Origin: an uncultured Rubritalea sp.
GTDB taxonomy: Bacteria > Verrucomicrobiota > Verrucomicrobiia > Verrucomicrobiales > Akkermansiaceae
Length of the DNA stretch: 46,808 nt
NCBI GenBank assembly: GCA_937981665.1
Contig: CALJOJ010000029.1
Location: 1 to 46,808, forward strand
Reading direction: 5' to 3'
The notes under the pieces are model-generated. The model was given only the letters and a program-made list of their open reading frames with translations. It was not told the origin of the DNA and searched no databases. Position numbers and translations under genes: made by a program. Below are positions 35,273-36,123 of the stretch, one piece after another. How positions within the stretch are numbered: the stretch's first letter is position 1; each line of letters opens with the position of its first letter.

Positions 35273-35824
35273 CTATTTAAGTGCCTTAATAATGTCTTTG
35301 GTCCCATGCCTTTTACCTACGGTTCCGAAGGCGAAGGAGGCAGTTATTTTACCACCTTGATCGATGATAAAGATCGTTGGATGCGCGATTCCTTCTAGCT
35401 CAGTATCTTTTTTAGTATGATTTCTTACACCATAAGCATCGATGGTTTTTGACTTATCATCAGCCAGCAGCGGAAAGCTTATCTTTAGGGTTTCTTTGAC
35501 TTTTTTGAGTGTCTTCTTGTTATCAAAGTTGACCGCCCACAATGTGGCACCAGCATCAGTGATCTGTGGATTACCTGCTTGCAGTTCGACCAACTGCTTT
35601 TGGCATGGTGGTCAGAATGCTCCAGATCTGTAGAAGAGGAGTGCTACTTTACCTTGTTGCAGCTGCTTGTAGAGGGTGTGTTTCTCGCCGCCTGCTTCCT
35701 TCAAGGTGAAGTCAGGTGCTATGTCACCCACTTTAAGAGGCTCTGTTTCAGCCGCTGTAGTGAGTAGCACAGAAGAGAGTAGTGCCAGCGTGATTGAAGT
35801 TAGAAGTAGTATTGAGTTCCTCAT
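35273..35824 (-). CDS. Thioredoxin/peroxiredoxin-like protein, candidate selenoprotein (UGA at residue 71)
   Basis: Read through an in-frame TGA (35612-35614) the gene gives 183 residues: a signal peptide (to about TTAA-ETEP), the AhpC/TSA start VGDIAPDFTLKEAGGEKHTL, then LLFYRSGAF-U-PPCQKQLVELQ and the cis-Pro region EGIAHPTIFIIDQ. The TGA sits exactly where homologues have the first Cys of the CxxC redox motif, giving U71-P-P-C74. Fourteen bases after the UGA the mRNA can form GCAGUU-GGUCG-AACUGC, a SECIS-like hairpin (35581-35597). Without readthrough the product stops at 70 residues. A simple nonsense mutation is the rival explanation. No selenocysteine-machinery gene is in the window. 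Confidence 0.75.
35581..35597 (-). promoter_or_regulatory. Candidate bacterial SECIS hairpin
   Basis: On the transcript strand GCAGUU pairs with AACUGC around a GGUCG loop. The hairpin begins 14 bases after the UGA, so the loop lies about 21 bases downstream, inside the window in which SelB recognises bacterial SECIS elements. The loop starts with GGU, like that of E. coli fdhF. The pairing is seen; the function is inferred. Confidence 0.65.
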
Positions 35825-36042: not shown

Positions 36043-36123
36043 TACCCTATAAATATTATTAGCGGTTGATTATTAGCGGTTGAGTACTCTCATAGATACA
36101 ACTAGCCTAGAGCACCTTCGATC

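Follow-up and report, generated by a model that had tools for sequence, protein, structure and literature searches.

The minus-strand gene described here is read as coding for a secreted, thioredoxin-fold selenoprotein of the peroxiredoxin-like (Prx-like) UxxC type, with selenocysteine (Sec) at position 71, a reading to which we assign a probability of about 0.93. It lies in a contig of an uncultured, marine Rubritalea sp. (Verrucomicrobiota), of which the whole stretch of 46,808 nucleotides was analysed (hereafter, the window); the source genome amounts to 2.7 Mb in 107 contigs and is 93% complete. We infer Sec insertion, export and the catalytic role of the protein from the reading frame, the homology, the Sec machinery of the genome, the recurrence of UGA at the same alignment column and the SECIS-like hairpins taken as a set. 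The features concerned are listed in Table 1.

Table 1. Features of the candidate selenoprotein gene, with their positions in the window
Feature	Position	Strand	Basis
Prx-like (AhpC/TSA) UxxC selenoprotein gene (proposed)	35273..35824	minus	Translation with TGA as U; Pfam AhpC-TSA; AlphaFold2; Foldseek
UGA within the frame at codon 71; proposed selenocysteine in place of the first Cys of CxxC	35612..35614	minus	Column carries UGA or Cys in homologues
TGC codon for Cys74 in the UxxC motif	35603..35605	minus	Translation; invariant alignment column
Signal peptide of the Sec pathway (predicted; approximately residues 1-25)	35750..35824	minus	Hydrophobic N-terminus, by inspection
SECIS-like hairpin GCAGUU-GGUCG-AACUGC	35581..35597	minus	6 bp; UGA-to-loop distance of 20 nt; counterpart in G007; set-level enrichment

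Reading frame, fold and active site

The preliminary description of this DNA had joined two minus-strand half-ORFs through a TGA without a frameshift, and this was borne out: the frame runs from an ATG start to a TAG end over 183 codons plus the stop, no frameshift is present, and the TGA at codon 71, in the context FYRSGAF-U-PPC, is its sole interruption. Fifteen frames in the window are joined by a TGA that is preceded by 50 or more codons and followed by 35 or more, and this is the only one with the TGA at a recognisable CxxC-type redox site. The N-terminus (MRNSILLLTSITLALLSSVLLTTAAETEP) is hydrophobic and, by inspection, is predicted to be a signal peptide, as had been proposed. Downstream, 93 nt separate the gene from that of an outer-membrane efflux protein (OEP), and a terminator search in this gap found none. 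Upstream of the gene, a 14-bp unit is repeated in tandem (2.1 copies) at the intergenic positions 36055-36083.

With TGA translated as U, an AhpC-TSA domain (PF00578) is matched over residues 32-162 (E=1e-30; 106.6 bits vs. a curated Pfam cut-off of 26) and, since this domain covers the TGA, both halves belong to one protein. The AlphaFold2 model, built from a 7-row alignment with Cys substituted for Sec, adopts a thioredoxin fold (mean pLDDT of 84), in which U71-P-P-C74 is placed at the active site, at the start of helix 72-90, residue 71 standing just before the helix. Among solved structures, Foldseek ranks the BCP and AhpE peroxiredoxins first and ResA after them. When the protein is aligned to the peroxiredoxin 2cx3, residue 71 matches the Thr/Ser of the peroxiredoxin motif and C74 its peroxidatic Cys, which indicates a UxxC arrangement and not the classical TxxU. 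The UGA residue had been equated with the first Cys of a CxxC motif, and the alignment indeed sets U71 and C74 on the CxxC of the homologues.

The TGA might also be a true stop followed by an independent ORF, since the ORF listing holds a downstream frame of 106 aa with a TTG start (35593-35273). This is hardly credible, as a single AhpC-TSA domain runs across the TGA, the nearest Cys homologue is one continuous protein and the predicted fold requires both halves. For the selenoprotein, the likely role is that of a periplasmic thiol:disulfide oxidoreductase or peroxidase, acting via a selenenylsulfide intermediate.

Homologues and Sec machinery

The nearest homologue found, L109, is a full-length protein with 42% identity over 160 residues; it carries Cys in place of the UGA, and the sequence is conserved to both sides of it. 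UGA itself occurs at column 71 in six homologues from five relatives (G007, of the same genus as the source, G022, G092, G077 and two in G074), as well as in L116 and L119, from two genomes of another family of the class. At column 74, the peroxidatic position of the peroxiredoxins, it was found in G018, G040, G045, G077 and G092. The alignment suggested in the preliminary description gave the expected picture, with Cys, or independently UGA, at the column in question. Of the sampled relatives, the eight whose homologue has UGA at the active site all possess selA, vs. 46 of 98 genomes overall. In a tree of 85 homologues, no fewer than four label changes are needed to account for the rows with UGA at column 71, and the window protein pairs with the Cys protein L109 (support 99/90, but with long branches). 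The motif LTWYRGGWCPYC, present in many Cys homologues, is presumably associated with the peroxiredoxin-like family cd02970.

Close orthologs were found neither in the GTDB species genomes (searched with peptide patterns), nor in viral contigs, nor in 260 genomes of the family; plasmid matches were all below 60% identity. No ortholog with UGA was found above about 33% identity, and none of the 260 family genomes yielded a UGA homologue at E<=1e-15. Stops in G059, G016, G027, G050 and G052 were discarded as Sec sites, as they lie upstream of the domain and reflect over-extension of the alignment.

A pseudogene, in which a chance nonsense TGA struck a Cys ancestor whose function was then lost, is improbable. 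It would take a single substitution (TGC or TGT to TGA), and no close ortholog was found by which selection could be gauged; however, the stop sits exactly on the catalytic Cys among 183 codons, it is TGA and not TAA or TAG, the genome encodes the full Sec machinery, and UGA recurs at the same column in relatives. No further stop or frameshift was seen, and the frame itself carries no second lesion; such mutations in close relatives had been named beforehand as a sign against the selenoprotein.

A search of the genome for selA, selB, selC and selD had also been advised, the absence of the first three counting against the proposal, and all four are present. SelA (6e-125; 417 bits) and SelD (5e-115; 384 bits) were matched, and SelB scored 271 bits, over its cut-off. 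The SelB protein, 638 aa long, combines an EF-Tu domain with the beta-barrel and winged-helix domains of SelB. Its nearest named relatives, at 60-82% identity, come from Rubritalea and from metagenome genomes of Verrucomicrobiales, which marks the organism as Rubritalea-like. The tRNA-Sec, whose anticodon loop is CUUCAAA, was detected with Rfam at 60.4 bits, above the gathering score of 47, but not by ARAGORN. This complete machinery in the same genome makes the window gene almost certainly a real selenoprotein gene. The four genes are spread over four contigs (selA on C58, selB on C41, selC on C33 and selD on C4), and no selA-selB neighbourhood appears in the stretches read.

The scarcity of TGA as a stop, terminating just two of the 29 long ORFs of the window, counts in favour of the selenoprotein, but could also be taken to suggest that UGA is decoded as Trp or Cys through a changed code or general suppression. 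Such decoding is very improbable, given that some genes still terminate at TGA, that canonical tRNA-Sec and SelB are present, and that the in-frame TGAs found occupy catalytic Cys positions in families already known as selenoproteins.

Besides the window gene, the genome holds at least four candidate selenoprotein genes: selD, two TxxU peroxiredoxin genes and one for MsrA. The selD gene (L048:1360-2532, on C4) has a UGA of its own in place of the catalytic Cys codon (SCGG-U-ASKL), a trait shared with many Sec-using bacteria, and so serves as an internal positive control; the loop of its hairpin is 33 nt away from the UGA, a longer distance than at the other sites. A BCP-like peroxiredoxin gene, L069:1441-1914 (minus strand; C15), has UGA at the peroxidatic Cys (DLTPG-U-NTQAC) and no evident signal peptide; its hairpin is weak by the scan criteria used. 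On C41, the gene of a secreted TxxU-type peroxiredoxin (L071:1387-1947; AMTGG-U-TKQC) is directly followed on the same strand by that of MsrA (L071:2060-2827; PMSR match 2e-38), with UGA at the catalytic Cys (TFGMG-U-FWGP). The SECIS-like hairpin of the latter is very stable (AGACUCCC-AGUUC-GGGAGUCU, loop 19 nt past the UGA; shuffle P of 0.0016). PMC13188914 lists the families of all these genes as selenoproteins. A further selenoprotein lineage is the clade formed by L057, L061 and L064, secreted peroxiredoxins with GG-U-T from three genomes of two families, whose hairpins are near-identical (GUC..CGUGA..GGC).

SECIS-like hairpins

In the bSECISearch model, a bacterial SECIS is a hairpin placed right after the UGA, with a small apical loop at a distance of about 16-37 nt and a G in the first two loop positions. 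The hairpin of the window gene begins 14 nt past the UGA, carries GG at the start of its loop and agrees with this model in loop distance and stem. In G007, the counterpart is GCAGCU-GGUCG-AGCUGC, one U-A pair being replaced by C-G through two synonymous changes (TTG/CTG and GAA/GAG); this compensatory pair is suggestive, although the shared KQLVEL peptide favours such a hairpin.

Hairpins as good as that of the window gene occur at 1.8% of the codon positions in the window's genes, and 6.5-10% of amino-acid-preserving shuffles equal it (P of about 0.07-0.10), which makes it weak evidence when taken alone; the single-hairpin fold test gave z = -1.5. As a set, strong SECIS-like hairpins were found at 13 of 15 UGA sites vs. 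10 of 72 homologous Cys sites (Fisher 9e-8), and the combined P of the shuffle analysis was 2e-9 for 15 UGA homologues and 1.0 for 71 Cys homologues, figures which do not come from independent samples, since the rows are related, and which rest on scan criteria that are our own simplification of the bSECIS model. The hairpin of the preliminary description was confirmed in stem, loop and distance; as a SECIS it is backed by the enrichment across UGA homologues, whereas the individual hairpin barely exceeds chance.

A sequencing or assembly error of TGC or TGT in an ordinary Cys gene is less probable still than a pseudogene. The TGA of the window gene is known from one consensus sequence of a draft assembly in 107 contigs; against an error, several independent genes with UGA at a Cys site were found in this genome and in others, and the hairpins at UGA genes are mostly missing from Cys homologues.

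In G022, a Cys copy and a Sec copy from one Prx-like subfamily (L006 and L056) coexist. The former retains a CAGCUGGUGCAGCU segment resembling the SECIS of the latter; this segment may be a fossil SECIS or else a coincidence at the protein level.

As for the mechanism proposed for the selenoprotein, SelB carrying Sec-tRNA(Sec) would bind the hairpin just past the UGA, and selenocysteine would be inserted at position 71 during translation. Once exported, U71, the N-cap residue of the first active-site helix, would act as the nucleophile in the periplasm, C74 would resolve it as a selenenylsulfide, and the pair would serve thiol:disulfide exchange or peroxide reduction.

Relation to known selenoproteins

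UxxC peroxiredoxin/thioredoxin-like selenoproteins had been called known at the outset, and rightly so: the Prx-like UxxC proteins were treated as a known family by 2005 (PMC1088965), are abundant in the GOS data (PMC2398784) and were tabulated in 2026 (PMC13188914). The window gene is a divergent new member of this family. With the Prx-like thiol:disulfide oxidoreductase selenoproteins (PF00578, UxxC/UxxU; Prx-like 1 of the GOS survey), its product shares the AhpC-TSA domain, the replacement of CxxC or of the peroxiredoxin TxxC by UxxC, and a SECIS-like hairpin directly past the UGA. It differs from them in its Verrucomicrobiota host, its identity of at most 42% to any homologue found, its predicted secretion and a nearest homologue that is a Cys protein.

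Three other assignments were considered. Sec-peroxiredoxins (TxxU) have the Pfam family and the fold in common with the window protein, and the paralogues L069 and L071 stand in the same genome, but their Sec is at the peroxidatic column 74, where the window protein has Cys, its UGA being at column 71; it was therefore not classed with them. The ResA/TlpA-type periplasmic thiol-disulfide oxidoreductases (NF002854) are likewise secreted thioredoxin folds with CxxC in the same place; the window protein was rejected as ResA, with 64 bits vs. a curated cut-off of 170 and the peroxiredoxins ahead in Foldseek. For cd02970, the Sec motif listed in PMC13188914 is UxxS, whereas the window protein has UxxC.

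Tentatively, and with less than even confidence, secreted redox enzymes may have been converted from Cys to Sec several times independently in Verrucomicrobiota, the window gene being one such case; its SECIS was perhaps drawn from the already hairpin-prone codons of the conserved KQLVEL helix, and it may belong, with the TxxU peroxiredoxin and the adjacent Sec-MsrA, to a selenium-based periplasmic defence set against peroxide and methionine oxide.

Searches of the open literature on selenium and selenoproteins in Verrucomicrobia and Rubritalea brought up no dedicated account of the selenoproteome of the Rubritalea lineage. The data point to a small, undescribed selenoproteome in this lineage; standard annotation would truncate or split the window gene and at least three more redox genes of the same genome. 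Within the family, Cys/Sec replacements have occurred in parallel at a single column, some accompanied by a SECIS-like hairpin and some not, and as such it offers a useful natural experiment on the origin of SECIS elements in coding sequence.
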